In this document: positions 35,286 to 59,088 of the stretch, in pieces
Layout: each line of letters begins with the position of its first letter
Numbering within the stretch: the stretch's first letter is position 1
Assembly: GCF_020215665.1 (NCBI RefSeq)
Contig: NZ_CP084061.1
Coordinates: 6,174,501-6,238,500 of the forward strand
Origin: Blautia parvula
Lineage (GTDB): Bacteria > Bacillota > Clostridia > Lachnospirales > Lachnospiraceae
DNA: 64,000 bases
Reading direction: 5' to 3'
Notes under the pieces: model-generated
Told to the model about the DNA's origin: nothing
The model's database searches: none
What the model saw: only the letters and a program-made list of their open reading frames with translations
Made by a program: the position numbers and the translations under genes

Positions 35286-35795
35286 TTAATCTTCCAGATT
35301 GCTTTTTATTTCCCCGCACGCTATTTTGCTGCCGGAATCCCCTGAGGGCTGGGTTTTGAAGTCGTCAGGGTTTTCGTGGATCACAACCGTCCGGCCAATG
35401 ATTTCCTCCGGGACGAACCGGTTGGTATAAAACATGGAAAGGGCATAGCCGTCATTTTCAAAGAGCGGAGGCAGATCTCCGGCGTGTTCCGGGTGCGGAC
35501 AATCCTTTGGATTTAAATGGCTGCCGGTCAGTGGGAAATCCCCTTCTGCATTTTCTTCGCAGGAAGAACCTTCATGAATGTGAAAGGCGAAGATTTTTTC
35601 CCGGCAGGCAGCTTCCGATGTGGGAAGTCCGGCAACATCAGCAAGGACAACCGTACCTCCCCACAGCGGGAAAAAGTATACGAAACCTTTGATATGAGGA
35701 TATTTTTTTCCACCGTAAACAAAGGCGTAAGCTTCCGGTGCAGTGGTGATCACCTTTTGCATGGCTTCCAATAATTCCCGGCGCATGAATGTCAT
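35286..35795 (-). CDS. sodC: Cu/Zn superoxide dismutase family protein
   Basis: A 169-residue protein with the ligand set of Cu/Zn SOD: FHIHEG (two Cu His), GSHLNP (bridging His), HPEHAGDLP (Zn ligands) and VVIHEN (last Cu His). No signal peptide is visible, unlike periplasmic SodC of Gram-negatives. The start is the ATG at 35795, which overlaps the stop of cotJC (ATGA); the longer frame would run into cotJC. It was therefore the gene translationally coupled to cotJC and may act on or in the spore coat. The ICE insertion upstream cuts it off from the original cotJ promoter, so it may now be silent or rely on ICE-end transcription. Confidence 0.88.
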   Translation of the reverse strand: MTFMRRELLEAMQKVITTAPEAYAFVYGGKKYPHIKGFVYFFPLWGGTVVLADVAGLPTSEAACREKIFAFHIHEGSSCEENAEGDFPLTGSHLNPKDCPHPEHAGDLPPLFENDGYALSMFYTNRFVPEEIIGRTVVIHENPDDFKTQPSGDSGSKIACGEIKSNLED

Positions 35796-36025
35796 TTGCT
35801 GCAGCCTGAATCGCAGCTGCATTTGGCAGGCATGTCAAAGCTGGGATTGAATGCATAGAAGTTTTTGAAATCCAGTTCTTCCTGAACGGAACGGAGGGTT
35901 TCACCGAAACGCTGGAAATGCACAACTTCTCTTTCACGCAGGAAACGGATGGGGTCCACAACATCCGGATCTCTGATGACACGCAGAATGTTGTCATAAG
36001 TGGTCCGCGCTTTCTGTTCTGCTGC
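35792..36025 (-). pseudogene. cotJC: cotJC, 3' fragment (spore-coat Mn-catalase family)
   Basis: An open frame of 77 residues ending KCSCDSGCSK that matches the C-terminal third of CotJC/manganese catalase (EQKARTTYDNILR, FLREREVVHFQRFGE with metal-site Glu and His, NFYAFNPSFD). It begins at the ICE end with codons GCA GCA GAA. The middle of the same gene lies at 58844-59065, on the other side of the ICE. The stop overlaps the sodC start. With the ICE removed, the frame joins without gain or loss of a base. Confidence 0.92.
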
Positions 36026-36042
36026 AACCTCATAAGAACAAC
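36018..36042 (+). other. attL of the ICE (core TCTGCTGC plus terminal arm)
   Basis: Core TCTGCTGC at 36018-36025, repeated at 58844-58851. The arm TGCAACCTCATAAGAACAAC (36023-36042) is an imperfect inverted copy (16 of 20 bases) of the arm at the other ICE end, as expected for half-sites of a large serine recombinase. Confidence 0.82.
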
Positions 36043-36095
36043 ATAGGCGAAAAGCCTTATAAACACGTTGTTTTTCGTGGTACAGGCTTTCCCTT

Positions 36096-36116
36096 GCTGC
36101 AATTGCATAAGAACAA
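36096..36116 (+). repeat. Second copy of the ICE end arm, 75 bp inside
   Basis: GCTGCAATTGCATAAGAACA at 36096-36115 repeats GCTGCAACCTCATAAGAACA at 36021-36040 in the same direction with three differences. It could be an extra recombinase site or the trace of an older end. Confidence 0.65.
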
Positions 36117-36180
36117 AAACTACATTATATAGAAGATAATACAAACTATCCTGCAAAAATTCCATAGTTTCGATAGACCG

Positions 36181-36208
36181 GACGTTCAGAAATGAGCGTC
36201 TATTTTTT
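36181..36208 (+). terminator. Terminator upstream of the adhesin gene
   Basis: GACGTTCA (36181-36188) pairs with TGAGCGTC (36193-36200), one mismatch, followed by TATTTTTTT. It shields the adhesin gene from outside read-through. Confidence 0.75.
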
Positions 36209-36239
36209 TACCCCAAAATAAAAGGAGGATTTATTTCTT

Positions 36240-39200
36240 ATGAAAAAGATTATGAACCGCCTGCTTGCTGGCGTACTTAGTCTGGCTGCGGTTTTCACAA
36301 CCTTACCTGCTTCACAGGTGCAGGCTGCGGAAAAACAGTATTGGACGGACGCACAGGAAAAAGCAGGCTACGTGGAAAAGTTGATGAATGATGGCAGCAT
36401 AGGCTCTACATTCCACGAGGGCATTATGCAGGTGGAGGGTGAAACCGCCTACTGTATTGACATCAACACGGATTTTATATCTGGTTACAAGACCCGAAGC
36501 GACGCAAGCACACGTATGAGTGCCGACCAGATTGCGGACGTAGCCCTCTCCTTGGAATACGTCAAACAGTATGCGGCCAGTCACAAGGAGCTGAATTACA
36601 AACAAGTCTATCTGTTAGAGCAATGCGTTGTCTGGCAGCGATTGAGCGTACACCTCGGCTGGCAGTGTGACAACGTAAGGGCTGCTTATGATGAAATAGG
36701 CAAAGCAGTACAAAATGAGGTCTACGCTGGCGCAAAGGCTTTCGTCAAAGAAAACAAAGGCCGCTATGAGTGCGGGGGCTATATCTATACTGGCAACGGG
36801 CAGGACTTGGGACAGTTTTGGGCGAAGCTGGCGGTGGGAAATGCCACCTTGCAAAAATCATCAGCGAACACAGGACTTACAGAGGGCAGCACAATCTATT
36901 CTGTGGCAGGTGCGACCTATGGCGTGTTTGCCGACAAAGGCTGCACGGACAGGATTGCTACCCTTACCACAGATAAAAATGGGAACACGGAAACTGTGGA
37001 AGTCAAAGCTGGTACGGTCTATATCAAGGAACTGTCTGCACCAGCAGGCTTCACACTGGACAAAAACGTGTATCCATTGACCGTCAAGGCTGGAAAGACC
37101 GCTACCTTGAAAGTCAGTGATACCCCAAAGGCCACAACTACCCTTATTGAGCTGTTTAAGATTGATATGGATACTTCAAAATCTGTGCCACAGGGAAACG
37201 CTTCTTTAGAGGGTGCAGAGTTCACATGGAATTTCTATGCTGGCTACTACAACAAAGACAATCTTCCGAAACAGCCTACCCGTACATGGATAACAAAGAC
37301 GGTGGCTGAAAAAGGCAGCGACGGTAACATTCATTACATCACAAAGCTGGCTGACAGCTACAAGGTATCTGGCGACAGCTTCTACACACAGAATGGCGTT
37401 CCATGCCTGCCGCTTGGTACTCTGACTGTATCCGAAAGTAAGAGTCCGACAGGTTACTTACTGGACGGTGCATTTTTACAGGCAGATGGCAGCGAGGAAC
37501 AGATAAAAGGTATGTATCTGACACAGATTACCGAAGATGGGGAGCTGGCTGTCCTTACAGGCAGCAACCAATACTCCGTATCAGAAAAGGTTATCCGTGG
37601 CGGCGTGAAAATCCAGAAAAGAGATTATGAAACAAAGGATACCAAACCACAGGGCGGTGCAACCTTAAAGGACACTGCTTTTTCGATTACTTCCTTAAAT
37701 GACAATGCAGTACTGGTAGACGGAAAGCTCTATCAGAAAAACGAGGTGGTAAAGACAATCCTCACAGGGATTGACGGTATCGCTTCTACTGCTGCGGATA
37801 CTTTACCCTATGGAAAATACCGCATTGATGAAAGTAAAAGCCCGACAGGATACTTGAAAGATGGTGCAAAACCTATCGAATTTGAAATCAAGGAGAATGG
37901 AAAAATCGTGGATTTGACTGGTGAGGATACTTCCATCTATAACCAGATTAAGCGTGGCGACATTGAGGGCGTGAAAATCGGTGACGGTACACACAAGCGT
38001 CTTGCGGACGTACCGTTTCGGATCACCAGCAAGACGACTGAGGAGAGCCATATTATCGTGACAGATAAAAATGGGCAGTTTTCCACTGCTTCTGACTGGG
38101 TATCCCACAAACAGAATACCAATAAAGGAACGTCCAGCGAGGACGGTATCTGGTTTGGAACGTCTGAACCAGACGACTCCAAAGGTGCGCTTCTCTATGA
38201 TACCTACATGGTTGAAGAACTCCGCTGCGAAAGCAACAAAGGCTTCAAGCTCATTCCTGCTTTTGAGATTGTGGTGTCCAGAAACAACACGGTCGTTGAT
38301 TTAGGCACGCTTACAGACGACTACGAAAAAGAGCTTTCTATCCATACCACCGCTGCCAGCAAAGACGGTGAAAAGTCAATCACTGCTGCCAAAGAGGTCA
38401 CTATCGTGGATACCGTTGCTTTGGACGGTCTGAAAAAAGGCACAAAGTACCAGCTCAAGGGCTGGCAGATGGATAAAGCTGAAAATGCTGAACTTCTCAT
38501 TGATGGCAAGCGTGTGGAGAATGAATACACATTCACTGCTGACGGTGAGGAAATGAAAATCAAAATGGAATACACGTTCAATGCTTCTGCTCTTGGCGGC
38601 AGGGATTTGGTGACTTTTGAGGAACTTTACGACCTGTCCGACAAAAACGAGCCTGTCAAGGTTGCGGAGCATAAAGACATCACAGACGACGGGCAGACGG
38701 TTTCTGTCAAGGAACGTATCATCAAAATCCACACCACTGCTGCGGACAAGGAAACTGGTGAAAAATCAATCGTTGCTGGCAAAGAGGTCACAATCGTGGA
38801 CACTGTTACTTTAAGCGGTCTGGAAGTAGGTTCAAAATACCAGCTCAAGGGCTGGCAGATGGACAAGGCCGAAAATGCCGAGCTTCTCATTGATGGCAAG
38901 CGTGTGGAGAGTGATTACACATTTACTGCCGATAAAGAGGAAATGAAAGTGGAGGTTGTCTTTACATTCAACGCTTCTGCCCTTGGCGGCAAGAACTTGG
39001 TGACATTCGAGGAACTCTATGACGTAACCAATCCCGATAAGCCTGTAAAGGTCACAGAGCATAAAGACATAGAGGACGAGGGACAGACGGTTCTTATCAC
39101 CGAGCGTATCATCAAAATCCACACGTCCGCTGCCAGCATGGACGGTGAAAAAGTCGTGGAAGCTGGCAAAGAGGTCACAATCGTGGATACCGTCACTTTA

Positions 39201-39686
39201 GATGGTCTGGAAGTGGGCACAAAATACCAGCTCAAAGGCTGGCAGATGGACAAAGGCAAAAATGCCGAGCTGCTCATTGACGGGAAACCTGTGGAAAATG
39301 AGCTTACATTCACTGCAACCGATACCAAAATGGAGCTGGAAATCAAGTTTACTTTCGACGCTTCTTCCCTTGGAGGTAAGCAGTTAGTCACATTCGAGGA
39401 ACTTTACGACGTAACCAATCCAGATAAGCCTGTAAAGGTCACAGAACATAAGGATATTGAGGACAAGGGACAGACAGTGGCTATCAAGGAAGTGCCAGAA
39501 GAACCAGCGAAACCAGAGCAGCCAGAAACACCAGCTACCCCTAGCCATAAGCCAACGGACTCCCCAAAAACAGGCGACAACACGAATGTGGCTGGCTTTG
39601 CTCTCATGCTTGGACTTTCTGCGGTTGGCCTTGCATTTGCAGCCTATAAGAAACGCTATACTATGAAGCATGGCACGGATAAGTAG
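36240..39686 (+). CDS. Thioester-domain / VaFE-repeat surface adhesin with sortase signal
   Basis: A 1148-residue secreted protein. The signal peptide ends near Ala30. A thioester domain (about 32-205) has the Cys of AYCID (72) and the Gln of EQCVVW (about 128), the pair expected to form an internal Cys-Gln thioester that can bind host amines covalently. SpaA/Cna-B-like domains follow (about 218-690; ESKSPTGYL twice), then three near-identical VaFE-type repeats (about 700-826, 828-955, 957-1082), each with EVTIVDTV, YQLKGWQMDK and LVTFEELYD. The sortase signal is SPKTGD near 1107. It is the left-end cargo of the ICE and probably helps cells attach to host tissue or to mating partners. AAAAGGAGG precedes the ATG. 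No sortase gene is in the ICE. Confidence 0.9.
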   Translation: MKKIMNRLLAGVLSLAAVFTTLPASQVQAAEKQYWTDAQEKAGYVEKLMNDGSIGSTFHEGIMQVEGETAYCIDINTDFISGYKTRSDASTRMSADQIADVALSLEYVKQYAASHKELNYKQVYLLEQCVVWQRLSVHLGWQCDNVRAAYDEIGKAVQNEVYAGAKAFVKENKGRYECGGYIYTGNGQDLGQFWAKLAVGNATLQKSSANTGLTEGSTIYSVAGATYGVFADKGCTDRIATLTTDKNGNTETVEVKAGTVYIKELSAPAGFTLDKNVYPLTVKAGKTATLKVSDTPKATTTLIELFKIDMDTSKSVPQGNASLEGAEFTWNFYAGYYNKDNLPKQPTRTWITKTVAEKGSDGNIHYITKLADSYKVSGDSFYTQNGVPCLPLGTLTVSESKSPTGYLLDGAFLQADGSEEQIKGMYLTQITEDGELAVLTGSNQYSVSEKVIRGGVKIQKRDYETKDTKPQGGATLKDTAFSITSLNDNAVLVDGKLYQKNEVVKTILTGIDGIASTAADTLPYGKYRIDESKSPTGYLKDGAKPIEFEIKENGKIVDLTGEDTSIYNQIKRGDIEGVKIGDGTHKRLADVPFRITSKTTEESHIIVTDKNGQFSTASDWVSHKQNTNKGTSSEDGIWFGTSEPDDSKGALLYDTYMVEELRCESNKGFKLIPAFEIVVSRNNTVVDLGTLTDDYEKELSIHTTAASKDGEKSITAAKEVTIVDTVALDGLKKGTKYQLKGWQMDKAENAELLIDGKRVENEYTFTADGEEMKIKMEYTFNASALGGRDLVTFEELYDLSDKNEPVKVAEHKDITDDGQTVSVKERIIKIHTTAADKETGEKSIVAGKEVTIVDTVTLSGLEVGSKYQLKGWQMDKAENAELLIDGKRVESDYTFTADKEEMKVEVVFTFNASALGGKNLVTFEELYDVTNPDKPVKVTEHKDIEDEGQTVLITERIIKIHTSAASMDGEKVVEAGKEVTIVDTVTLDGLEVGTKYQLKGWQMDKGKNAELLIDGKPVENELTFTATDTKMELEIKFTFDASSLGGKQLVTFEELYDVTNPDKPVKVTEHKDIEDKGQTVAIKEVPEEPAKPEQPETPATPSHKPTDSPKTGDNTNVAGFALMLGLSAVGLAFAAYKKRYTMKHGTDK

Positions 39687-39776
39687 TATCTGAGGTATCT
39701 GCCTATGAAGTTGCCTATCCGTTCACCGCCACAACATCAATCAGACCACGGTTTCACCTTTACACTGTTTCTTTTC

Positions 39777-39846
39777 TATCAATCGTCTTTTTGATTGATA
39801 GAAAAAAACAGTCCACTAGGGGGTTTGGGGGAGTGTAGCTCCCCCA
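39777..39846 (+). terminator. Two hairpins after the adhesin gene
   Basis: TATCAATC/GATTGATA (39777-39800) and TGGGGGAG/CTCCCCCA (39826-39846). Neither has a long T tract directly after it; one or both may end or process the adhesin transcript before the transfer operon. Confidence 0.5.
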
Positions 39847-39893
39847 TGCTCTTACACCAAAAATAGATGAAGAAAGAAAAGAGGTAAAAATTT

Positions 39894-40208
39894 ATGGAAT
39901 TAAAACACGTCATCCCAAACATGGAAAAGACATTCGGAACACTGGAATTTGCTGGCGAGGGCAAGACCGAACAGCGTAGGGTCAATGGGCGCATGACGGT
40001 CATTTCCCGTAGCTTCAACTTGTATTCTGATGTACAGCGAGCCGACGACATTGTGGTTATCCTGCCTGCGTCCGCTGGCGAAAAAAATTTCGAGGTGGAG
40101 GAAAAAGTGAAGCTCATCAACCCGAAAATCACTGCTGACGGTTACAAAATCGGCAACCGTGGATTTACAAATTATATCCTGTCCGCTGACGACATGGTAA
40201 AAGCATAA
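39894..40208 (+). CDS. orf23: DUF961 protein, Tn916 Orf23-like
   Basis: A 104-residue soluble protein of the DUF961 family (KTFGTLEFAGEG, VILPASAGEK). Homologues always stand at the head of Tn916-type transfer operons and often occur in pairs, as here. In ICEBs1-type elements the related HelP proteins assist the host helicase in replication of the excised circle; that role is inferred here. AAAGAGG precedes the ATG. The second copy follows after 15 bases. Confidence 0.85.
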   Translation: MELKHVIPNMEKTFGTLEFAGEGKTEQRRVNGRMTVISRSFNLYSDVQRADDIVVILPASAGEKNFEVEEKVKLINPKITADGYKIGNRGFTNYILSADDMVKA

Positions 40209-40223
40209 GGAGGTCAAGAAACT

Positions 40224-40616
40224 ATGAGATTAGCAAACGGTATCATCATTGACAAGGAAAAAACATTCGGCGTATTGAAATTTTCAGCTTTGCGGCGTGA
40301 GGTACACGTCCAGAACGAGGACGGTACGGTATCCGAGGAAATCAAGGAACGCACCTATGATTTGAAGTCCAGAGGACAGGGACGCATGATACAGGTAAGT
40401 ATCCCTGCTTCTGTTCCCTTAAAGGAATTTGACTATAACGTCGAGGTGGAAATCATCAACCCTGTGGCGGACACGGTGGCGACTGCCACCTTTCAAGGTG
40501 CAGACGTGGACTGGTACATCAAGGCCGACGACATTATCTTGAAGAATAAGCAGAACCAGCCAGCAGGAAACCCACAGCACCAGCAGCCAAAGAAAGACAG
40601 CCCAAACGGGAAGTAG
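40224..40616 (+). CDS. orf22: DUF961 protein, Tn916 Orf22-like
   Basis: A 130-residue paralogue of the preceding gene product (KTFGVLKFSALRREV, IQVSIPASVPLKEF). It has an extra Gln/Asn/Pro/Lys-rich C-terminal tail that could bind nucleic acid. AAGGAGG precedes the ATG. It is probably a helicase-processivity-type accessory factor in ICE replication, like its neighbour. Confidence 0.85.
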   Translation: MRLANGIIIDKEKTFGVLKFSALRREVHVQNEDGTVSEEIKERTYDLKSRGQGRMIQVSIPASVPLKEFDYNVEVEIINPVADTVATATFQGADVDWYIKADDIILKNKQNQPAGNPQHQQPKKDSPNGK

Positions 40617-40624
40617 ACCTGTAA

Positions 40625-41440
40625 ATGGGGGCTGGTGATTTTGCAGAAAGGAGTCAAGGATTTATTGAGAATTTAACGATACAGGAAATCCCCAGAGAAA
40701 CAGCGGTTGCTTTCATTCGTGAGTACCACTATTCCAAAGTGATACCCCGTCTATGTGTCTATTTTCTGGGGATTTACCATGAAAACCAGTTGACAGGTGT
40801 GGTGGAACTTGGGTGGGGCACGCAACCCTTACAGACAATCCACAAGATTTTCCCACAGCATGAGCTTGTGACAGCGGATTACCTTGAAATCGGGAAAATG
40901 TGCTTTCTCCCAGAAATGAACCACAACCAGTATTTTGGCAGCCTAGCCCTTTCCACTTTGATTAAGTGGCTTCGGGATAATACAGGCTGCCTTTTTCTAT
41001 ATACCCTTGCAGATGGTATAGAGGGAAAATGCGGTTACGTATATCAGGCTTCTAACTTCTACTATCTTGGCAGCTTTAAGACCAGCGTGTACCGTGACAG
41101 CCAGACGGGGGAAAAGATACACCCCCGAAGTGCCAGAATACTGCTGGAAGAAAATGCCCGTATAGATGGAGTCAAAAAGCGGCACTGGCTGACCCATGCT
41201 TTCTGTGAGTACAAAGGGATTGAGAAGATCAACGGGCTTATGTTCCGCTATATCTACCCCTTAACAAAAGAAGCAAGGCAGATTTTAAGGGACTATCCCT
41301 GCTATGTGAGAAATAACTACCCAAAAGACCATAGCCTGCTGTTCCAAAAGCGGGTTTCCAACAGAGTCTATGAAACCATTCAGCAGCCGCAATTTGATAA
41401 AAACACCTGCCGCTACAATACACAAAATTACAACCGATGA
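40625..41440 (+). CDS. Mom-family adenine-modification protein (antirestriction)
   Basis: A 271-residue GNAT-like protein that fits the Mom family, named after phage Mu Mom, which converts adenine in DNA to N6-(methylcarbamoyl)adenine and so hides DNA from restriction enzymes. Features seen are IREYHYSKVIPRLCVYFLGI (about 30-49), GVVELGWGTQP, LEIGKMCFLP and ALSTLIKWLRD. The start ATG at 40625 lacks a strong ribosome site and lies eight bases after the Orf22 stop, so coupled translation is likely. It stands between Orf22 and Orf21, where Tn916 has no gene. Together with two ArdA proteins it gives this ICE three ways around restriction. The catalytic assignment rests on family resemblance recalled from annotation, not on proven activity. 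Confidence 0.72.
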   Translation: MGAGDFAERSQGFIENLTIQEIPRETAVAFIREYHYSKVIPRLCVYFLGIYHENQLTGVVELGWGTQPLQTIHKIFPQHELVTADYLEIGKMCFLPEMNHNQYFGSLALSTLIKWLRDNTGCLFLYTLADGIEGKCGYVYQASNFYYLGSFKTSVYRDSQTGEKIHPRSARILLEENARIDGVKKRHWLTHAFCEYKGIEKINGLMFRYIYPLTKEARQILRDYPCYVRNNYPKDHSLLFQKRVSNRVYETIQQPQFDKNTCRYNTQNYNR

Positions 41441-41453
41441 GAAAGGAGGACTT

Positions 41454-42842
41454 ATGAAACAGATACAGAGGAAAGGCAACCGTATCCGAGCCAGTGACAG
41501 GTCGCTGGTGGTGCGGTCAATCACCCTGCGGCTGGCAGTGCTGTTCCTTGGGATACTCCTGCTGCTGAATATCCCTGCCCTGCTGCACACCGACTGGAAC
41601 AGGGTTTCGCTGCTGCATGAGGGCAGCATAAAACTTACCGTCACGCCTTATATGGTGGTTTCCGTCATGGCTGCGGCTCTGGTGTGCGGCGTGGCTTCGT
41701 TCCTGTATGCCCGTTACTGTCCAGACAAGATAAAGCAGCTCTGCCACCGCCAGAAACTTTCCCGTATGATACTGGAAAATGGCTGGTACGAGTCCGAGCA
41801 GTCACAGGACAGCGGCTTTTTCAAAGACCTGCCAGCCAGCAGGTCAAAAGAGAAAATCACCCATTTCCCCAAAGTGTACTACCGCTTGGATAACGGACTC
41901 ATTCACATTCTGGCTGAAATCACGCTGGGGAAATATCAAGACCAGCTCCTGCACTTGGAAAAGAAGCTGGAAACAGGGCTTTACTGTGAGCTGGTTTCCA
42001 AAGAGCTGAAAGACAGCTTTGTGGAATATATCCTGCTCTATGACACCATAGCCAACCGTATCACCATTGATGAGGTACGGGCGGAAAATGGCAGCTTAAA
42101 GCTCATGGCAAACGTCTGGTGGGAGTATGACAAGCTCCCCCATATGCTGATAGCTGGCGGCACGGGTGGCGGTAAGACGTATTTTATCCTTACCATCATA
42201 GAAGCCCTCCTGCGTACCAACGCCAAAATGTATGTGCTTGACCCAAAGAACGCTGACCTTGCCGACCTGTCCAATGTCATGCCCGAAGTCTACTACCGAA
42301 AGGAGGAAATCACAGACTGTATCGACCGTTTTTATGAGGGCATGATGGAACGGAGCGAAACCATGAAGCAGTTAGAGGGCTACAAGACGGGGGAAAACTA
42401 CGCCTATTTAGGTCTGCCGCCCCACTTTCTGATTTTTGATGAATACGTGGCTTTCATGGAAATGCTGACGACAAAGGAAAACGCTGCGGTCTTGAATAAG
42501 CTGAAACAGATTGTCATGCTTGGGCGGCAGGCAGGCTATTTTCTGATACTCGCCTGTCAGCGGCCAGACGCTAAATACTTAGGCGACGGTATCCGCGACC
42601 AGTTTAATTTCCGTGTGGCTTTAGGGCGAATGTCAGAGCTGGGCTATTCGATGATGTTCGGCGAAGTAGACAAAGACTTTTTTCTGAAGCAGATCAGAGG
42701 GCGTGGCTATGTTGATGTGGGGACAAGTGTCATCAGTGAGTTTTACACTCCCCTTGTCCCCAAAGGGCATGATTTTATAGCTGTTATCGGAGAACTAGCA
42801 GGAAAGATGACAAAAAAAGAAGCTACGGAAAAATCCCCATAG
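41454..42842 (+). CDS. orf21: FtsK/SpoIIIE-type coupling ATPase (TcpA, Orf21)
   Basis: A 462-residue membrane-anchored motor that delivers the relaxase-DNA complex to the transfer channel. Two membrane segments lie near 25-45 and 60-85. The ATPase domain has GGTGGGKT (Walker A, about 237-244), a Walker B ending LIFDEY, and the LACQRPDAKYL motif typical of TcpA. GAAAGGAGG precedes the ATG at 41454; the longer frame overlaps the Mom-like gene. Confidence 0.93.
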   Translation: MKQIQRKGNRIRASDRSLVVRSITLRLAVLFLGILLLLNIPALLHTDWNRVSLLHEGSIKLTVTPYMVVSVMAAALVCGVASFLYARYCPDKIKQLCHRQKLSRMILENGWYESEQSQDSGFFKDLPASRSKEKITHFPKVYYRLDNGLIHILAEITLGKYQDQLLHLEKKLETGLYCELVSKELKDSFVEYILLYDTIANRITIDEVRAENGSLKLMANVWWEYDKLPHMLIAGGTGGGKTYFILTIIEALLRTNAKMYVLDPKNADLADLSNVMPEVYYRKEEITDCIDRFYEGMMERSETMKQLEGYKTGENYAYLGLPPHFLIFDEYVAFMEMLTTKENAAVLNKLKQIVMLGRQAGYFLILACQRPDAKYLGDGIRDQFNFRVALGRMSELGYSMMFGEVDKDFFLKQIRGRGYVDVGTSVISEFYTPLVPKGHDFIAVIGELAGKMTKKEATEKSP

Positions 42843-42844
42843 CT

Positions 42845-43045
42845 TTAACGTAGCTTCAATATGTCATTTGGCGTACAGTCAAGAAATTCGCATAATCTGG
42901 CAAGTATCGCAAGGTCTATTCTGGTGACTTTACCCTTGCAATAATTATTGAGTTGTGTTCGTTGCAGCTTACAGGCTTCACATACCTTATTTTTGCTAAT
43001 CTTCTTTTCTTTCAATAGCTGCTCTAAATCAATGTATATCATCAT
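42845..43045 (-). CDS. Small XRE-type HTH regulator
   Basis: A 66-residue Cro/CI-type helix-turn-helix protein (ISKNKVCEACKLQRTQLNNY, then LAILARLCEFLDCTPNDIL) with nothing else attached. It is encoded against the transfer operon and ends three bases after Orf21. It has no counterpart at this place in Tn916. It may regulate itself or the divergent secreted-protein gene at 43150. Confidence 0.85.
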   Translation of the reverse strand: MMIYIDLEQLLKEKKISKNKVCEACKLQRTQLNNYCKGKVTRIDLAILARLCEFLDCTPNDILKLR

Positions 43046-43149
43046 TCTTCTATACCCGTCCTTTTTGTTAATTATATATACAACTGTATTGAATAATAAG
43101 ATGTATTACAGTACACTGTATGTATATACAGGGTAAAGGAGTGTTCTGG

Positions 43150-43560
43150 ATGAGCAGTAAAAAATTATTAGGTCTTGCTACTATATTTATTGTGGCAGTA
43201 ATGGCGACAGATTATTTACAGAATGGACGGGAAATGTCTGTTTACAACAGCTATTCCCTCACAGCAGGCGTTTATAAAGAAGAACACCTTATTGTCGTGG
43301 TGAACAGACTATATATCCCCGATAAAAAGGATTGTGCAAAAGAGATCGTCAGAAAATGCAGGGAAAACAACTTCGGAAACGTGCTATTCAGCTATGATTA
43401 TGGTATTCCCAATGAACTGCACGCTTCGGTGTACCTGTCTGAACATGATGTAAAAAAAGGTGAACCCCTATTCACTTTTAGTTATACAGCAAAAGAAGGT
43501 GTGCTGACCGATTACAACATTGTGGATAATCCACAAGAATTTGAATTGACGGTTGAATAA
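43150..43560 (+). CDS. Hypothetical membrane-anchored or secreted protein
   Basis: A 136-residue protein with one N-terminal hydrophobic segment (LLGLATIFIVAVMATDYL) and an extracellular-type remainder that I do not recognise. Start at 43150 for the AAAGGAG upstream. It is divergent from the small XRE gene and precedes oriT. Genes at this position vary between ICEs, so it is probably accessory. Confidence 0.65.
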   Translation: MSSKKLLGLATIFIVAVMATDYLQNGREMSVYNSYSLTAGVYKEEHLIVVVNRLYIPDKKDCAKEIVRKCRENNFGNVLFSYDYGIPNELHASVYLSEHDVKKGEPLFTFSYTAKEGVLTDYNIVDNPQEFELTVE

Positions 43561-43627
43561 AAACGACCAAAGGCAGGACGGGCAGGCGGCGTGCAAAGCG
43601 AAAGCCGCTGGCACGGACTAGCCTTTG

Positions 43628-52828: not shown

Positions 52829-52849
52829 GACAGAAAGGAAATGGTATCT

Positions 52850-53758
52850 ATGAGATTAAAGAAAAAAGAAAAAGAAGCAAAACCCAATAAGGCAAAGAAA
52901 GTGCGTGTGATGAAAGTAGGCACACACAGAAAGTCCATTATCGCCCTTTGGCTGGTGCTGATTGCCAGCGTCAGCTTCGGGGTGTATAAGAATTTCACTG
53001 CCATTGATATGCACACCGTCCACGAGAAAGAGGTCATAGAACAGCGTATCGTGGATACGAACAGGATTGAGAACTTCGTCAAGGACTTTGCAAAGTCCTA
53101 TTATTCATGGGGCAACAACAAAGAAGCCATTGAAGCAAGGACAGCCGCTATCAGCAGGTATCTCACAAAAGGTTTGCAGGATTTGAACGTGGACACAGTG
53201 CGGAGCGATATACCGACCAGCTCCATTGTAAATGAGGTAAAAATCTGGAACATAGAGCAGGCTGGAACAGACGAGTATGCTGTCCTCTACTCCGTAGATC
53301 AGACGGTGACGGAGGGCGAAAAGTCCGCTGTCCTCGTATCCGCCTATACGGTGGCTGTTCATGTGGACAGTGACGGGAACATGGTAATCACAAAGAACCC
53401 CACCATCAGCAGTATGCCAGCAAAGTCCAGCTATGAGCCAAAGGCGGCAGAAAGCGACGGAACGGTAGACGCTGCCACCACAGAGGAAGTGACGGAGTTC
53501 TTGGAAACATTCTTCAAGCTGTATCCCACCTCTACCGATAAGGAACTTTCCTACTATGTAGCGGATAGTGTGCTGAAACCCGTAAACATGGACTATCTGT
53601 ATTCCGAGCTAATCAATCCGCTGTTCACTATGGACGGGGATAAGGTCAAGGTGTCGGTGTCAGTGAAGTACCTCGACCAGAGGACAAAGGCAGCACAGAT
53701 TTCACAGTTTGACTTGGTGTTGGAAAAGAGCGTGGGTAATTGGAAGATTATTAGATAG
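52850..53758 (+). CDS. orf13: TcpC/ConB-like conjugation protein (Orf13)
   Basis: A 302-residue bitopic membrane protein: basic N-terminal cytoplasmic part, one helix (about 33-50), then two NTF2-like domains outside (about 85-195 and 205-302). This is the plan of TcpC, a VirB8-like scaffold. ATG 52850 is spaced correctly from AGAAAGGA; the ATG at 52841 is too close. It is the last gene of the transfer operon and ends at a shared terminator. Confidence 0.92.
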   Translation: MRLKKKEKEAKPNKAKKVRVMKVGTHRKSIIALWLVLIASVSFGVYKNFTAIDMHTVHEKEVIEQRIVDTNRIENFVKDFAKSYYSWGNNKEAIEARTAAISRYLTKGLQDLNVDTVRSDIPTSSIVNEVKIWNIEQAGTDEYAVLYSVDQTVTEGEKSAVLVSAYTVAVHVDSDGNMVITKNPTISSMPAKSSYEPKAAESDGTVDAATTEEVTEFLETFFKLYPTSTDKELSYYVADSVLKPVNMDYLYSELINPLFTMDGDKVKVSVSVKYLDQRTKAAQISQFDLVLEKSVGNWKIIR

Positions 53759-53760
53759 TT

Positions 53761-53789
53761 AAAAGGGGCTTTTCATTATAGCCCCTTTT
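53761..53789. terminator. Bidirectional terminator after orf13
   Basis: AAAAGGGGCT (53761-53770) pairs with AGCCCCTTTT (53780-53789). It serves orf13 on the plus strand and the TetR-type gene on the minus strand, whose stop codon lies in the loop. Confidence 0.85.
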
Positions 53790-54345
53790 CCTCTCTCTTT
53801 GAATTAAAAAGGGACGCTTCTTTAAAAACTTGCGTCAAATCAGCGCTGTTTTGTATTAAACCATTATCTATCCATCTCATGAGCAGGTTCCACATTCCAC
53901 CTGCATTAAAAGCCAACACAAGCTCAATATTCGGTTCACTTATCTTATATGGAAGTTTAGATTGAAATAGCTCATGTATGAATGGTAAACGCATATTGAA
54001 TGCTTCTAATAATAAATTAGATAACCCATTTCTCCTTAAAGAAATTATAAAATCTAAATTTACATTACAAAAGTCCAGAAATACTTTGAATATTTTTTGC
54101 ATATCAAGCTCATTTAATTCAGAAATTTTGCTTATATAATCCTGTGTTAATGAATCCAAGTGAAAATTTAATATATCCTGCTTTGATTTAAAATTCCGAT
54201 AGAATGTACTCCTATCTAAATCCGCCTTTCGAGCTATTTCTTTAATTGTAATACTTTTATATGCTTTCTTCTGCATTAACACTAATAACGCAGAAACTAA
54301 CCATTTCTGCGATTGAATGGCAATAGGATTTTGTGTCGAATACAT
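53776..54345 (-). CDS. TetR-family regulator (ICE cargo)
   Basis: A 189-residue regulator: helix-turn-helix at about 20-60 (SITIKEIARKADLDRSTFYR) and a C-terminal ligand-binding helical domain with Asn/Leu-rich composition, like the TetR proteins with a C-terminal DhaS/AcrR-like fold. The region 53776-54986 is clearly AT-richer than the transfer genes and so was probably acquired separately. It diverges from the HXXEE gene, which it may repress. The shared intergenic DNA has no perfect palindrome that I could see. Confidence 0.88.
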   Translation of the reverse strand: MYSTQNPIAIQSQKWLVSALLVLMQKKAYKSITIKEIARKADLDRSTFYRNFKSKQDILNFHLDSLTQDYISKISELNELDMQKIFKVFLDFCNVNLDFIISLRRNGLSNLLLEAFNMRLPFIHELFQSKLPYKISEPNIELVLAFNAGGMWNLLMRWIDNGLIQNSADLTQVFKEASLFNSKREEKGL

Positions 54346-54485
54346 TTTTTTACCTCCTCTTAAAACTGCAACAAACAGCTATGGTTTGTAGTAGTTATCA
54401 ATGAATTATTGACTTTCCACTAATGCTATTATACTATGCAGTTAGAAGTGAGACAAGTGTTGCACTTATAGAAAGGGGAAAAATA

Positions 54486-54986
54486 ATGAATGAAATATAT
54501 TGGATTTTACCAGTGTTGTTTATTTTCCATGATTTTGAAGAAATTATTTTTATGGAAAGATGGGTGAAACGATTGGATAGAGAAAAATTATATGAACGTC
54601 TACCTGTAAATTTGGTTAAAAAGATATTAAGACATTTCGATAACATATCAACAACTAAGTTCGCTATGAGTGTCTATATTTTATATATTATGTTAATCGT
54701 CTGCACATTTATATCGTATTTGTGGAATTTAAAATTGTTTTGGACTTCCATTTTCCTCTTTTTTACAATACATTTATTTATTCACTGTTTGCAATCTATT
54801 TTTTGGGGTGGATATATTCCGGCTGTATTTACAAGTATTATATGTATTCCTATATGTTTATGGATATTAAAATTTGTTTTCACTAAATTTCATTTCTCAT
54901 TATTTTCTATATCATTTATGACATTGATAGTTGCAATAGTCGCATTATTTGTCTTATGTGGTTTGCACAAAATAATGGAAGCATGA
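54486..54986 (+). CDS. HXXEE-domain membrane protein (ICE cargo)
   Basis: A 166-residue protein with about five membrane segments; the family's His-x-x-Glu-Glu motif is present as FHDFEE (about 14-19) after the first helix, and two further His in IHLFIHC (about 99-105). The HXXEE family is membrane-bound and of unknown function, possibly metal-dependent. Here it is paired with a divergent TetR-type gene, as many small-molecule resistance or modification genes are. GAAAGGGG precedes the ATG at 54486. It fills the slot where Tn916 carries tetM. Confidence 0.82.
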   Translation: MNEIYWILPVLFIFHDFEEIIFMERWVKRLDREKLYERLPVNLVKKILRHFDNISTTKFAMSVYILYIMLIVCTFISYLWNLKLFWTSIFLFFTIHLFIHCLQSIFWGGYIPAVFTSIICIPICLWILKFVFTKFHFSLFSISFMTLIVAIVALFVLCGLHKIMEA

Positions 54987-54997
54987 AATTGCATTAA

Positions 54998-55027
54998 AAA
55001 AACAGAGAATCAAATCTCCTCTGTTTT
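54998..55027. terminator. Bidirectional terminator between HXXEE and XRE genes
   Basis: AAAACAGAG (54999-55007) pairs with CTCTGTTTT (from 55019), with A and T tracts outside the stem. Confidence 0.8.
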
Positions 55028-55366
55028 CTTAGATTTGCATATTCCATCAGCTAGAGCTTCCATTAACATTAACTCTTTATCTGTAAAGCTATCCATTTGT
55101 TTTTCAATCTGCCTGCGCCTTGTACTTTTGGCTTGGCTGCTGGCAGGTAGGAAAAATTCATCAACGGACACATTAAGTAAAGTCACAAGGTCATAAAGTA
55201 CCTGTAAACTTGGGTGTTGTCCTTTATTCTCAATATTTGTTAAATAACGTGGGTCAATATCAATTTTTGCACCCACCTGTTCACGAGTCAGACCTTGTTT
55301 TTTCCTTGCTGCTTTGATGGCAAGTCCAAAGGCTCTGAAATCGTACCTATCTTCTTTTTTACGCAT
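55010..55366 (-). CDS. orf9: XRE-family regulator (Orf9-like)
   Basis: A 118-residue protein: HTH at about 12-65 ([20 protein letters not shown], then [20 protein letters not shown]) and a short basic C-terminal tail. In Tn916 the equivalent Orf9 is encoded against the regulatory genes at this point and is thought to repress transfer. It faces the leader/sigma region, consistent with that role. Confidence 0.87.
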
Positions 55367-55629
55367 AGTAAATCACCTCACTACATTTTACTGTTCCTAA
55401 AGAATAAGTAACAGGTGTAGTAAAACGTATTGTTAGGTTTTATAGTTCCTATTATGCGTAAATAACAGCTAAAAATACTGCTTGGCGGTAAATAAAAAAA
55501 ACCGTTGTCAGCAGTAATGCTTTTTTGCGCCCTTTTAGATAAGACGACGGTAAAACAAATGCCGCCGTTTTATTTTTTACCTAACGGTGACTAGGTTGTT
55601 TTGTTTTAGCGGCTATGGGAGGTAGCCGC

Positions 55630-55692
55630 ATGGAATATTTATTTATTCGACAACTTTCGACCATTGGCAATTTGTTAAAAAAATCCGTTTAA
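55630..55692 (+). CDS. 20-residue leader peptide candidate
   Basis: ATG at 55630 follows GGGAGG with seven bases between, and encodes 20 residues beginning MEYLFIRQL and ending LLKKSV, with a TAA at 55690. A strong terminator follows 63 bases later. Stalling or fast translation here could open or close that terminator, as proposed for orf12 of Tn916. The peptide is too short to judge by composition. Confidence 0.5.
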   Translation: MEYLFIRQLSTIGNLLKKSV

Positions 55693-55754
55693 ATTCAGCG
55701 GACTATAGCACCCTTGTATATGGTTTTTCACATCATATAGCAGGAATAATTTGG

Positions 55755-55797
55755 AAAGCACAAAGTCAATACACCCGTATTGTCCTTGTGCTTTTTT
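55755..55797 (+). terminator. Strong terminator/attenuator before orf7
   Basis: AAAGCACAAAGTCAATAC pairs with GTATTGTCCTTGTGCTTT with one mismatch, the loop being ACCC, followed by a T run. It would block transcription into the sigma-like gene unless relieved. Confidence 0.85.
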
Positions 55798-55927
55798 GCT
55801 GCAAAATATTTTTTAAAAAAGTTTTTGAAGTTGGGTATCAAAGCCCACCCCCACTGGTGAGTGTTAGTGCGAAAAGAGGTAGAAGCCTTTTCGCTTTAGC
55901 AACTTTCGCTGGAAAGGGGGTGAGATT

Positions 55928-56344
55928 ATGAAACCATCTTCTTTCGAGAACGCAATCAGACTTCAATTTGACTGTCTGGCTCGCAAGGTTATAGGCCGAA
56001 CTGTAAAGAACTACGACAGAGAGCTTGGCAGACGTGCAAGACGTGAAACTCCATTCTGTGAACTGTCTGAAATGGAACTAAACCATATGGGTATCATGGA
56101 CGAGTATTCCGTTGAGTTTACATCATTTGATGTATTCGGTTCAGAAGTCCGTATCTATGATGAACGCTTATGTGAAGCAATCAAAGAATTATCTGAAAGA
56201 CGACGTAACATTCTGCTTATGTCCTACTTTCTTGAAATGACCGACGCTGAAATTGCAGAGGTCGTGGGAATGGAACGATTTTCCGTTTGTAGAAACAGGC
56301 TGCACACATTAAAGCTCATAAGAGATATGTACGAGGAGGATTGA
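55928..56344 (+). CDS. orf7: Sigma-70-like regulator (Orf7-like)
   Basis: A 138-residue protein with a C-terminal region-4-type HTH (LSERRRNILLMSYFLEMTDA, then EIAEVVGMERFSVCRNRLH). In Tn916, orf7 and orf8 promote expression of excision and transfer genes once transcription reaches them. AAAGGGGGTGAG is the ribosome site. It is followed after four bases by orf8. Confidence 0.9.
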   Translation: MKPSSFENAIRLQFDCLARKVIGRTVKNYDRELGRRARRETPFCELSEMELNHMGIMDEYSVEFTSFDVFGSEVRIYDERLCEAIKELSERRRNILLMSYFLEMTDAEIAEVVGMERFSVCRNRLHTLKLIRDMYEED

Positions 56345-56348
56345 AAAC

Positions 56349-56588
56349 ATGATGAAGTCTACAAAGAAATGCCCATCATTTTCCACAATCAGCTCTGCTG
56401 CTGACGGTGATGAGGCGGCAATCGAAAAGATTTTAAATCACTATGACGCTTACATATCAAAAGCCAGTTTACGACCTTTCTATGATGAACACGGAAATAT
56501 GTATATCGTGGTTGATATGGAACTGAAAGGCAGAATAAGAGCTGCATTGATTAAGGCAATTTTAGATTTTGAAGTCAAAGTGAAATAA
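56349..56588 (+). CDS. orf8: Helix-turn-helix conjugation regulator (Orf8-like)
   Basis: A 79-residue protein of the HTH_16 type (FSTISSAADGDEAAIEKILN, then HYDAYISKASLRPFYDEHGN). It always accompanies the sigma-like Orf7 in Tn916-like ICEs and probably works with it. ACGAGGA precedes the ATG. Confidence 0.88.
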   Translation: MMKSTKKCPSFSTISSAADGDEAAIEKILNHYDAYISKASLRPFYDEHGNMYIVVDMELKGRIRAALIKAILDFEVKVK

Positions 56589-56635
56589 ATGGTATTTGGG
56601 AGTGTCCTACCACCTCATTTCAGCTCCCCAATAAT

Positions 56636-56887
56636 TGCTCTTTGAAAACTGAATAAAGTAATCAGATACGTTTGATATACGGTGAGCCGACGGACTGGAA
56701 CGCCATGACCCATGAAAGGAGGGACAAAAGAGCGAGCGACCACGCCAGTGATCCGTAAGCGACTGTTGGAAAAGTTGCTGCCATGACCCGTATATCAGAA
56801 TAATGATACACCCGTATGACACGGTTCACCCATCAGAATGGGAATGGTGAGAGTCCAGTGGAGCTTTCCAAAGCCATCTGATTACTT
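56636..56887 (+). ncRNA. Candidate structured RNA with boxA-like start
   Basis: A ~250-base block with no ORF. TGCTCTTTGAAAACTGAATA (56636-56655) looks like the boxA antitermination sequence found before Firmicute rRNA genes. The rest is closed by a perfect 12-bp inverted repeat, AAGTAATCAGAT (56656-56667) with ATCTGATTACTT (56876-56887). Inside it lie TGATATACGG/CCGTATATCA (56673-56682, 56788-56797), ACTGG/CCAGT, a CCCAT-CAGA-ATGGG hairpin and two GCCATGACCC copies. This nested pairing strongly suggests a folded RNA. I do not recognise a named class. Confidence 0.6.
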
Positions 56888-56966
56888 CTTATTTAATAGA
56901 CAAAATCTTTCATAATGTACAAGCATTTTTGCATACTTTGTAAATATAGTGTAGTGAGGTGGTTTC

Positions 56967-57110
56967 ATGGCAAATGACGCAAAAGTAGTTTGCAAGAATG
57001 TTTTTAAGAATACTGATACAGCGGCTCTGCAAAAAGTGTTTACTCTGAAATGGATAGAACTGATAAACCAATTTGAAAAAAGTAAGGGGCAGCCTACTCC
57101 TGCAAGATGA
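56967..57110 (+). CDS. Small ICE protein upstream of the recombinase
   Basis: A 47-residue soluble protein (MANDAKVVCKNVFKN, then LQKVFTLKWIELINQFEKSK), after GTGAGGTGG. It resembles small conserved ORFs next to serine recombinases in Clostridial ICEs. By position it could be an excision-direction factor, but there is no HTH to support this. Confidence 0.6.
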   Translation: MANDAKVVCKNVFKNTDTAALQKVFTLKWIELINQFEKSKGQPTPAR

Positions 57111-57140
57111 TAGACAAACTATCCTGCAAAATGTTATAAT
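57111..57140 (+). promoter_or_regulatory. Promoter of the ICE recombinase
   Basis: TAGACA (57111-57116), an 18-base spacer and TATAAT (57135-57140). It overlaps ACAAACTATCCTGCAAAA (57114-57131), an 18-base sequence that also occurs at 36141-36158 near the left ICE end. Confidence 0.7.
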
Positions 57141-57194
57141 AACATAAGCAGTGATAGTTTGTTTTGTCTTCTCTGAAAAGGAGAACAAAACATT

Positions 57195-58760
57195 ATGAAT
57201 AAGTCAAGGGTTGCTATATATTGCCGCTTATCAGAAGAAGATAGAAACAAACAATCAGAAACAGACGACAGTAACAGTATTCAAAATCAAAAGTCTATGC
57301 TGCTTCAATATTCTTTAGAACAAGGGTGGGAGGTCTATAACATTTACAGTGATGATGATTACACTGGTTCTGACCGACGACGACCAGAGTTCAACAAGTT
57401 ATTGAATGACGCAAAAGACCATAAATTTGATATTGTCTTATGTAAGACTCAATCCAGATTTACCAGAGAGCTTGAATTGGTGGAAAAGTATATCCACGGT
57501 CTATTTCCCATCTGGGGTATTCGCTTCATTAGTATTGTTGATAATGCGGATACCGCAAACAAAGGAAATAAGAAATCAAGACAGATTAACGGACTGGTGA
57601 ACGAATGGTACTTAGAGGATATGTCGGAGAATATCAAGAGCGTGCTAACAGACCGAAGAAAAAACGGTCACCACATTGGAGCATTTGCTCTCTATGGTTA
57701 CAAAAAAGACCCTGATATAAAGGGGCACTTGATTATTGATGAAGAAGCTGCACAGGTTGTCAGAGAAGTTTTTACACTGTTTTCACAAGGCTATGGCAAA
57801 ACTGCCATTGCCCGTATACTGAATGACCGAGGTATTCCCAATCCAACGGAATACAAGCGGCTTCATGGTTTACGCTGGCGAACACCACAAGGCAAGAACA
57901 GTACCCTATGGAAATATTATGCTATTTCCGATATGCTGGTAAATGAAATTTATATTGGCAATATGGTACAGGGAAAATATGGGAGCGTGTCTTACAAGAC
58001 GAAACAAAATAAACCACGTCCTAAAAGTGAGTGGTACATTGTTGAGGGTACGCACGAACCGATCATTGACCGTGAATTATGGGATAAGGTGCAAGCGTTG
58101 ATAGCTCAAAAGGCAAAACCTTTTACAGTAGGTACAATCGGATTATTCGCAAAAAAAGCCCGCTGTATGAACTGCGGTTATGTAATGCGTTCTAATAAAC
58201 AGTCTGATGGCAGACGATATTTAGGATGTTCCAGCCGCCACGTTTCTAAAGACGCTTGTATTGGTTCTTTTATCTCTGTACCTAAGTTGGAACAGGCGGT
58301 GATTACAGAAATCAATAAGCTGTCTGCCGCATATCTGGATAAGGACGAATTGGAACAAAGCGTAACCTTTAACAGTGACGTAAGAGGAAAACAGAAGGCT
58401 CTGAAAGAGGAAATTGCTGCATATCAAAGTAAGATTGCAGAATATACCAAAGGTATTCGTGAGTTGTATTTAGATAAAGTTAAGGGTATCTTGTCAGAGC
58501 AGGACTATTTGGATTTATCCAAAGACTTCTCAACCCAAAAGGAAAGGCTAGAAAAACTGGTTATTGATACGCAAAAACAGCTTGACGTTATTGAAAGAAA
58601 AATACAAGCTGGTGATAACAAACGCCAGTTAATCGAGCAATACACCAATCTTGAACACTTAAACAGGGAAATCGTTGAAAAGCTGATTGACTATATATTA
58701 GTTGGAAAAAAAGACCCTGTTACAAAAGAAGTACCTATTGAAATACATTGGAATTTCTAG
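57195..58760 (+). CDS. int: Large serine recombinase of the ICE
   Basis: A 521-residue site-specific recombinase: catalytic domain with Ser in AIYCRLSEED (about residue 13), then the resolvase Arg-rich blocks (TQSRFTRELELVEKY), a recombinase domain (YGYKKDP, ARILNDRGIPNP), a zinc ribbon (CMNCGYVMRSN ... CSSRHVSKDAC) and a C-terminal coiled coil (about 395-480). It should join attL and attR to excise the ICE as a circle. Encoded opposite to cotJC, 60-85 bases from attR. AAAGGAG precedes the ATG. Confidence 0.95.
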   Translation: MNKSRVAIYCRLSEEDRNKQSETDDSNSIQNQKSMLLQYSLEQGWEVYNIYSDDDYTGSDRRRPEFNKLLNDAKDHKFDIVLCKTQSRFTRELELVEKYIHGLFPIWGIRFISIVDNADTANKGNKKSRQINGLVNEWYLEDMSENIKSVLTDRRKNGHHIGAFALYGYKKDPDIKGHLIIDEEAAQVVREVFTLFSQGYGKTAIARILNDRGIPNPTEYKRLHGLRWRTPQGKNSTLWKYYAISDMLVNEIYIGNMVQGKYGSVSYKTKQNKPRPKSEWYIVEGTHEPIIDRELWDKVQALIAQKAKPFTVGTIGLFAKKARCMNCGYVMRSNKQSDGRRYLGCSSRHVSKDACIGSFISVPKLEQAVITEINKLSAAYLDKDELEQSVTFNSDVRGKQKALKEEIAAYQSKIAEYTKGIRELYLDKVKGILSEQDYLDLSKDFSTQKERLEKLVIDTQKQLDVIERKIQAGDNKRQLIEQYTNLEHLNREIVEKLIDYILVGKKDPVTKEVPIEIHWNF

Positions 58761-58800
58761 GTTCTCATAATCTGGCAGCTAATATGCCAGATTATCGGGA
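58761..58800 (+). terminator. Hairpin after the recombinase gene
   Basis: ATAATCTGGCA (58767-58777) pairs with TGCCAGATTAT (58785-58795), extended by GTTC/GAAC. There is no T tract, so it may stabilise the 3' end or bind a protein near attR. Confidence 0.6.
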
Positions 58801-58820
58801 ACATCTCTTATACAGTCAAT

Positions 58821-58851
58821 GTTGTTCTTACAAAGTTGCACCATCTGCTGC
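58821..58851 (+). other. attR of the ICE
   Basis: Arm GTTGTTCTTACAAAGTTGCA (58821-58840) is the inverted partner of the left arm; the core TCTGCTGC follows at 58844-58851. Confidence 0.82.
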
Positions 58852-59065
58852 CATATCCTCAAACAAATCCGTGATAGGATCACCCTTTGACTGGAACTCA
58901 CAGGCGTTAAAGGGGACACCCCCGGCAGCCTGAGGCCAGATGCCTACTGTATGGTCAATATAGTAGGGACCGAGGCCGGATTTCTCGATTTCTTCCATGG
59001 AAAGGTTGCGTGTAAGCTGGTGTACAATGGTGGCTACCATTTCCATGTGTGCCAGTTCGTCGGTA
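58844..59065 (-). pseudogene. cotJC: cotJC, middle fragment
   Basis: An open frame (TDELAHMEMVATIVHQL at its start, GLGPYYIDHTVGIWPQAAGG, GDPITDLFEDMAA at its end) matching the middle of CotJC/Mn-catalase, including the metal-binding Glu and His of the ELAHMEM helix. It lacks the N-terminus, cut off by a second element at about 59066, and the C-terminus, now at 35792-36025. Both breaks are clean, with no stop or frameshift inside, so the fragments may still be rejoined by excision. Confidence 0.92.
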
Positions 59066-59088
59066 CAGAGAGGTTATCAATGGTATTT

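Follow-up and report, generated by a model that had tools for sequence, protein, structure and literature searches.

The cotJC locus

The DNA examined here is a stretch of 64,000 nucleotides (nt) from the gut bacterium Blautia parvula, called the window below. It covers C1:6174501-6238500, where C1 is the single contig (6,247,046 bp) of the genome under study, G000; other G-numbers denote the genomes compared and L-numbers the fetched stretches or contigs. The subject is the spore-coat gene cotJC, a member of the manganese-catalase family that we assigned by its PF05067 match and by the cotJA and cotJB homologs immediately upstream. The ortholog, 633 nt long including the stop codon, lies in five pieces across about 131.3 kb, all on the minus strand. 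They are parted by four elements that each bring a large serine recombinase (LSR) of their own: E3 at insertion site S1, E2b and E2a at S2, and E1 at S3. Only pieces C and D lie within the window. An in-frame open reading frame (ORF) spans the contig ends (6246374..209), and the prophage genes on either side of these ends are collinear with those of a prophage in G007; C1 is thus circular. The search for the 5' end to the right of the window indeed recovered A, B and a 13-nt remnant beyond the contig origin. In gene order, the pieces are:

C1:94583-94486, minus strand: piece A, with the cotJA and cotJB homologs directly upstream
C1:87652-87553, minus strand: piece B
C1:67143-67131, minus strand: 13-nt remnant, AGGTACTGAGGAA
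Window 58844-59058, minus strand: piece C (middle), with the E1 core at 58844-58851 and the E2a core GAA at 59056-59058
Window 35792-36025, minus strand: piece D (3' end with stop codon), recognized by its translation and the core copy at 36018-36025

Joined at their cores, the pieces encode a whole CotJC of 210 amino acids (aa). The D/C joint reads ...EDMAA-EQKAR... with zero bases lost and lies at the 8-bp repeat TCTGCTGC, found at 36018-36025 and 58844-58851. Both the flanking fragments with their core repeat and the seamless join had been proposed in the original prediction. Taken by itself, an 8-bp repeat is weak evidence. The joint is found again in G005 and G007, each time beside an 81–89% identical recombinase, which excludes a chance repeat. 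The rebuilt gene reads TEEL, while the TDEL read in the window contains an element-derived 'TD'. The original prediction also let the middle fragment run from 58844 to 59065. Its start holds, but piece C stops at 59058 and the remaining bases belong to the attachment arm of E2a. Likewise, the interruption of cotJC by unrelated serine-recombinase elements is borne out, their number being four and not two.

Could such a layout be an assembly artefact or contamination? The contamination estimate of the genome is 3.89%. However, all pieces lie on one contig with an ORF running across its ends, and the IMG/VR contig L183 matches the E2a/C/E1 joints with 100% identity over 12.3 kb, although it may stem from the same species or strain. 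In addition, G007 independently carries E2b, E2a and an S3 integrative and conjugative element (ICE) in the same order as G000, on one contig. We regard an artefact as exceedingly improbable.

The four elements and their recombinases

The elements and the features that bear on their integration are:

Window 36026-58843: E1, a 22.8-kb ICE at S3, bounded by two copies of the core GCAGCAGA (gene strand); Rep_trans relaxase, FtsK_SpoIIIE protein, AAA_10 ATPase and LSR1
Window 57195-58760, plus strand (antisense to cotJC): LSR1, 521 aa (PF07508, PF00239, PF13408), S3 clade
Window 56967-57110, plus strand: 47-aa ORF just upstream of LSR1, also present in G007, without Pfam match
Window 59059-64000: right end of the prophage E2a at S2, core GAA; the element runs past the window across the contig origin to C1:67130 and measures 80.6 kb
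Window 59070-59083, plus strand: attachment-arm inverted repeat of E2a, GAGGTTATCAATGG, with its partner beside the 13-nt remnant at C1:67131
Window 59089-60657, minus strand (sense with cotJC): LSR2a, 522 aa (PF07508, PF00239, PF13408), S2a clade
Window 60702-60736, minus strand: hairpin leader upstream of LSR2a, in common with LSR3
At S1: E3, 6.8 kb, core GGTGGACCGGA; LSR3 (480 aa), an Ltp-type lipoprotein, a second lipoprotein and a helix-turn-helix protein
At S2: E2b, a metabolic island of 20.4 kb, core AGGTA; LSR2b (541 aa) and metabolic cargo

All four recombinases, LSR1, LSR2a, LSR2b and LSR3, carry Resolvase and Recombinase domains and lie beside the attachment site of their element. 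That LSR2a is encoded on the cotJC strand had been noted beforehand and is correct. E2a, whose arms bear the inverted repeat GAGGTTATCAATGG / CCATTGATAACCTC, occupies the attachment site of E2b, and the 13-nt host remnant is the consequence. We had considered a three-element model in which S2 holds one 101-kb element with the core GTA. It was rejected, as G008 and G011 show two elements with different cores; the host remnant between the two S2 elements in G000 and G007 rules it out as well.

By gene content E1 appears to be a Tn916-like ICE, having a Rep_trans relaxase, an FtsK-type coupling protein and an AAA_10 ATPase, with an LSR replacing the tyrosine integrase; we assume a link to Tn916/Tn5397. 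A further ICE-like block (C1:30827-59563) is nested in E2a, where it splits the prophage between its tail and lysis genes. The genes of this block match those of the S3 ICE of G007, and the ORF beside its start (C1:30827-32017) is presumably a Tn916-type integrase. The cargo of E2b comprises ROK, MFS, PHP, GH120-type beta-helix, MatE, cation ATPase, mandelate-racemase type, DctP, DctM and zinc dehydrogenase proteins. The scan covered 10 of about 15 cargo proteins; every one of these was a metabolic or transport protein, with no phage or conjugation gene among them. Carrying its own LSR2b, E2b thus resembles a non-phage intervening island of the gin type.

Within one site the recombinases are 53–89% identical, while between S1, S2a, S2b and S3 the identity is only 21–31%; an LSR fragment from S4 gave no match in this comparison. 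A tree of 24 LSRs contains one clade per site, with support of 100/100 for S1 (13 rows), S2a (3), S3 (3) and S4 (2), and of 100/99 for S2b (3). Joins among these long-branched clades may be false, and none of our claims uses them. Judged from these sequences, cotJC is a hub for LSR elements, with four insertion sites and a separate LSR clade for each. The shared landing site that had been suspected is therefore stronger than claimed.

E1 encodes a surface protein with a SpaA and three TQ ester-bond domains (window 36240-39686, plus strand). The Lipoprotein_Ltp (PF07553) protein of E3 lies at C1:89769-90446 (minus strand), and a similar-looking lipoprotein is found in E2a (window 62081-62893); we take PF07553 to be a superinfection-exclusion family.

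Recurrence in the genus, the family and viral contigs

An ortholog of the split gene, with at least 79% identity, is present in all 20 genus genomes searched, our own included. It is whole in 11 of them, the intact relatives that the original prediction had asked to be compared, and broken in nine, at the following sites:

S1: G000, G002, G006
S2: G000, G007, G008, G011
S3: G000, G005, G007
S4 (HFQRFGE): G018, and G017 by its 5' part only

The pieces lie on one contig in G000, G006, G007 and G008 and on separate contigs in G002, G005, G011 and G018; G017 contributes a single piece. Joining was carried out for ten genomes (G000, G007, G008, G006, G002, G018, G186, G279, G005 and G011), and in all ten the joined cotJC is full length and free of stop codons and frameshifts. 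We attribute the full-length joins to conservative recombination together with the absence of decay. Joining in frame is what conservative recombination should produce, and we do not take it alone as a sign of selection.

In the family, at least 189 of 298 genomes have a cotJC match (90% completeness setting); the family numbers are lower bounds, with S2 and S3 under-sampled. We sampled 20 stretches from 20 genomes whose match started late or ended early, leaving at least four further candidates outside the sample (G230, G270, G124 and a second match in G040). The alignment ends at S1 in 14 of the 20 and at S4 in the other six. A related LSR lies within the fetched stretch in 12 of these genomes. 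The joint DNA was inspected in ten (G145, G287 and the eight lacking a related LSR), and several show similar arm sequences. Two insertions are very small: their cores lie about 2.2 kb apart in G186 and about 1.9 kb apart in G279, and each of them rejoins in frame. In these two (L163 552-2742 and L157 2568-4413) an LSR-like ORF is the sole large ORF seen, so that they look like near-minimal recombinase elements.

Scanning IMG/VR with CotJC returned 20 loci, every one of them partial. Seventeen are cut at S1 (n = 8: L189-L192, L197-L199, L206) or S2 (n = 9: L193-L196, L200-L204); L207 ends at S4, and L205 and L208 fit none of S1 to S4. L195/L196 and L200/L201 appear to be duplicate pairs, and L202 is near-identical to G000. 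An LSR-like ORF accompanies 15 of the 20 loci and stands on both sides of the piece in L197 and L202. On the contig L184 an S1-type LSR is followed by piece B and then by an LSR2b-like gene. In L197 (IMG/VR 3300029305_006352) the cotJC piece lies between an S1-type and an S4-type LSR, so that stacking is seen outside G000 as well. L205 (IMG/VR 2703719182_000005), whose CotJC match begins at residue 113 next to an LSR that resembles the S4 type at 34%, may mark a further site.

These comparisons also bear on the idea that the pieces are made as separate polypeptides, which act alone or assemble. Piece A with B carries the normal start, and C contains an internal ATG. On the other hand, the break positions vary among species, one piece is only 13 nt long, and an own start region was seen in none of B, C and D. 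This explanation is hardly credible.

Selection on the split gene

For the joined genes we calculated nonsynonymous (dN) and synonymous (dS) divergence by the Nei-Gojobori method. G000 and G007 gave dN 0.0061 and dS 0.533 (dN/dS 0.011), G000 and G008 gave 0.0153 and 0.571 (0.027), and G007 and G008 gave 0.0132 and 0.456 (0.029). The median dN/dS is 0.015 for split/split pairs (6 pairs), 0.016 for mixed pairs (12) and 0.042 for whole/whole pairs (7); these medians include pairs with a dS of 0.05–1.6, leave out G017 and come from pairs that share branches and are not independent. The split gene is hence under strong purifying selection, at a dN/dS comparable to that of intact copies and of the paralog described below.

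The element E2b occupies the identical core in G000, G007 and G008, with small cargo differences. Its 14 shared cargo genes have a median dS of 0.69 (G000–G007) and 0.88 (G000–G008); for seven flanking chromosomal genes the values are 0.58 and 0.57. A recent transfer would give a lower dS than that of the flanks. Based on these divergences, E2b most likely predates the split of the three species, and cotJC was most likely under strong selection while it was split. The genes of E1 and E2a diverge more between G000 and G007 (dS 1.3 for LSR1 and 1.2 for LSR2a; many are higher, some phage genes lower), and these two elements may be separate arrivals in the two genomes.

G000 also has an intact cotJC paralog (C1:5434074) with its own cotJA/B. 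It is 61% identical and occurs, with a dS of 1.0–1.4 to be set beside the values for E2b and its flanks, in 5 of the 20 genus genomes (G000, G004, G007, G008, G015). The original prediction had held that a complete second copy would speak against it. Formally such a copy exists, yet we do not count it as refuting, because the paralog is found in 5 of 20 genomes and the split ortholog in 20 of 20, under comparable selection. The paralog also raises the question of whether cotJC is a dead gene, a pseudogene that serves as a dump for elements with the paralog in its place. G000, G007 and G008 do have the intact paralog, accompanied by its own cotJA/B. Against this stand the dN/dS of 0.011–0.029 and the ten undamaged joined genes, and no match to the paralog was obtained in the remaining broken genomes (G002, G005, G006, G011, G017 and G018), several of which are drafts. 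We judge a dead gene to be very improbable.

Excision and regulation

A pattern search of IMG/VR, with the GAA core set between both arms of the prophage, matched one contig, 2808606725_000001. Here the LSR end of a G007-type prophage (99.5%) is continuous with its other end (99.8%). By its sequence, this junction is the phage attachment site (attP) of an excised E2a-type prophage, in a relative. The claim that the second element can be excised gains support from this attP and, less directly, from the strong purifying selection. The contig L178 stops exactly at the core, which is only suggestive of an assembly fork between the integrated and circular forms.

Upstream of cotJA, the sigma-K-type pattern AC-N16-CATAnnnTA is present in all three genomes tested, where base shuffles expect 0.04–0.07 per stretch. 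A 61-aa ORF precedes LSR2b in three of three species and the 47-aa ORF precedes LSR1 in both genomes examined. Neither has a Pfam match, and both are candidates only for directionality factors or LSR partners.

Upstream of the unrelated S2a- and S1-type LSRs lies a near-identical hairpin leader of 25–35 nt. It is present in exactly two copies in G000, in 3 of 397 family genomes and on seven IMG/VR contigs (window 60702-60736, minus strand; C1:89238-89272, minus strand; L137, L142, L146, L178-L184, L174). Its RNA fold has a z-score of −4.57 at LSR2a and −1.89 at LSR3; Rfam returned one match only, with an E-value of 0.39, far under the gathering score. We had considered the hairpin as a sporulation control module and rejected this, as it also precedes an ORF on L180 that is unlike the LSRs and, by its appearance, is presumably a tyrosine integrase. 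We take it as a general integrase leader, possibly an integrase attenuator.

From these data we consider it likely that cotJC is split by stacked, excisable LSR elements in a skin/SPbeta-like rearrangement that rebuilds a mother-cell gene. Very probably, the cell excises the elements and rejoins cotJC when the gene is needed. In anatomy and selection the locus is of the skin/SPbeta type, and it works like such a gene rearrangement: the elements lie in a sporulation gene, their short direct core repeats (GGTGGACCGGA, AGGTA, GAA and GCAGCAGA) allow a frame-restoring excision, and the dN/dS with the absence of stops indicates, indirectly, a functional host gene. Each element would have inserted conservatively at a core of 3–11 bp, and since the insertion is conservative, each recombinase, aided by a directionality factor, should be able to excise its own element exactly. 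Most likely, all four elements would be excised in the mother cell during sporulation, which would restore the cotJA-cotJB-cotJC operon. Because the mother cell leaves no descendants, the germ line would retain every element, and elements would accumulate in cotJC.

Several points weigh against this interpretation. What we infer, rather than observe, is the rejoining and its timing in sporulation, together with the removal of all four elements in one cell and the identity of the directionality factors. In IMG/VR, attP patterns for E1-, E2b- and E3-type elements matched nothing. The two S3 core copies in G007 differ by one base. E2b is somewhat more diverged than its immediate flanks (0.69 and 0.88 versus 0.58 and 0.57), and separate arrivals of E2b from diverged donors are a conceivable, if less likely, history. 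In G000 the intact paralog could supply the function, so that the split gene may be dispensable there. Two sigma-factor genes match the sigma-K model, both under the cut-off. The same model matches in 11 of 14 control genomes, above the cut-off in none, and our matches do not establish sigma-K for these reasons. Finally, the three mother-cell promoter patterns tested matched none of eight LSR upstream stretches. This last result is not decisive, because in SPbeta and the C. difficile skin element, as described in the available part of the source, the recombinase is expressed constitutively and it is the directionality factor that sporulation controls (PMC5595907).

A rival reading is a safe harbour without programmed rejoining. 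The elements would then sit in a low-value gene and leave it at random by prophage induction or conjugation, selection coming from cells or lineages with the elements out. The E2a prophage and the E1 ICE have their own reasons for excision, the prophage-type attP stems from a sequenced record without a known sporulation link, and the LSRs lack a mother-cell promoter pattern upstream. It fits less well that E2b, whose examined cargo has no phage or conjugation genes, occupies the same site in three species, and that cotJC has a dN/dS of 0.011–0.029. We consider the safe harbour unlikely, though well worth keeping in mind.

Relation to known split sporulation genes

The following comparisons draw on the available portions of the papers cited. 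They name sigK, spsM, spoVFB, gerE and yabG as split sporulation genes, which are rebuilt in the mother cell (PMC5595907, PMC10747680). As in cotJC, skin is a serine-recombinase element that splits a mother-cell gene, sigK in B. subtilis and C. difficile, and restores it on excision (PMC5595907). It is, however, one element in a regulator gene, whereas we find four in a coat gene, with a putative timing. SPbeta in spsM of B. subtilis is, like E2a, a functional prophage as intervening element (PMC5595907). It is a single insertion, while E2a occupies the attachment site of another element. The element gin in gerE of B. cereus lacks phage genes, as does E2b in the cargo scanned (PMC5595907); it unites three recombinases in one element, whereas the cotJC elements are separate with one each. 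Sporulation genes are also the targets of yin (yabG, C. botulinum), which occurs integrated and as a circle, and vfbin (spoVFB, B. weihenstephanensis) (PMC10747680). Unlike the cotJC elements, each is described as the single insertion in its gene, and neither gene is cotJC.

In C. difficile R20291, too, a prophage is associated with a CotJC-family gene: phi027 lies by the CotJC-like cotG (PMC12122855, PMC11222575). It is described as having cotG next to attR and not as lying within the coding sequence. Distantly related LSRs also converge on one gene at hot spots such as a magnesium chelatase-type gene and a prolyl isomerase (PMC10083194), but the prolyl isomerase has one site, and cotJC has four, stacked in one genome. 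We found no description of an interrupted cotJC in the literature within our search, which left most subscription journals, bioRxiv and supplements outside (including those of PMC10083194, which may list such targets); phi027 beside cotG comes nearest.

What is new is the stacking of four elements in one gene, together with the recurrence of the four-site hub in several species. The known intervening elements named above split their gene once each, as far as the cited sources describe them; cotJC carries four of unrelated origin, and its sites were struck again in other species and genera. This makes testable the long-standing question of why mobile elements choose sporulation genes. If elements are safe in a terminal mother cell, they are expected to stack in mother-cell genes with no trace of decay, as we observe. 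In a broader view, towards which we lean by a small measure, cotJC would work like a gene with several exons, put together by DNA splicing in a terminal cell. The independent recombinases, as many as four, would come from a prophage, an ICE, a domesticated island and a small element and would remove 131 kb in the same mother cell. Across the Lachnospiraceae it would then be a soma-only preferred harbour for LSR elements, in which the damage is self-repaired and excision is never inherited. The locus also provides several LSRs whose attachment sites, all within one conserved gene, are mapped and distinct. For annotation it is a warning, as cotJC would score as broken or missing in 9 of 20 genus genomes.

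Neighbouring genes and a discarded match

A profile match at C1:235697 had been considered as the 5' end of cotJC and was rejected, as it belongs to a complete, separate ORF of 176 aa. This ORF (C1:235697-235915, minus strand; L017 15457-15987) weakly matches the manganese-catalase model and is no part of cotJC. Directly downstream of cotJC lies a Cu/Zn superoxide dismutase gene (PF00080; window 35286-35822, minus strand), whose ORF overlaps the cotJC end.

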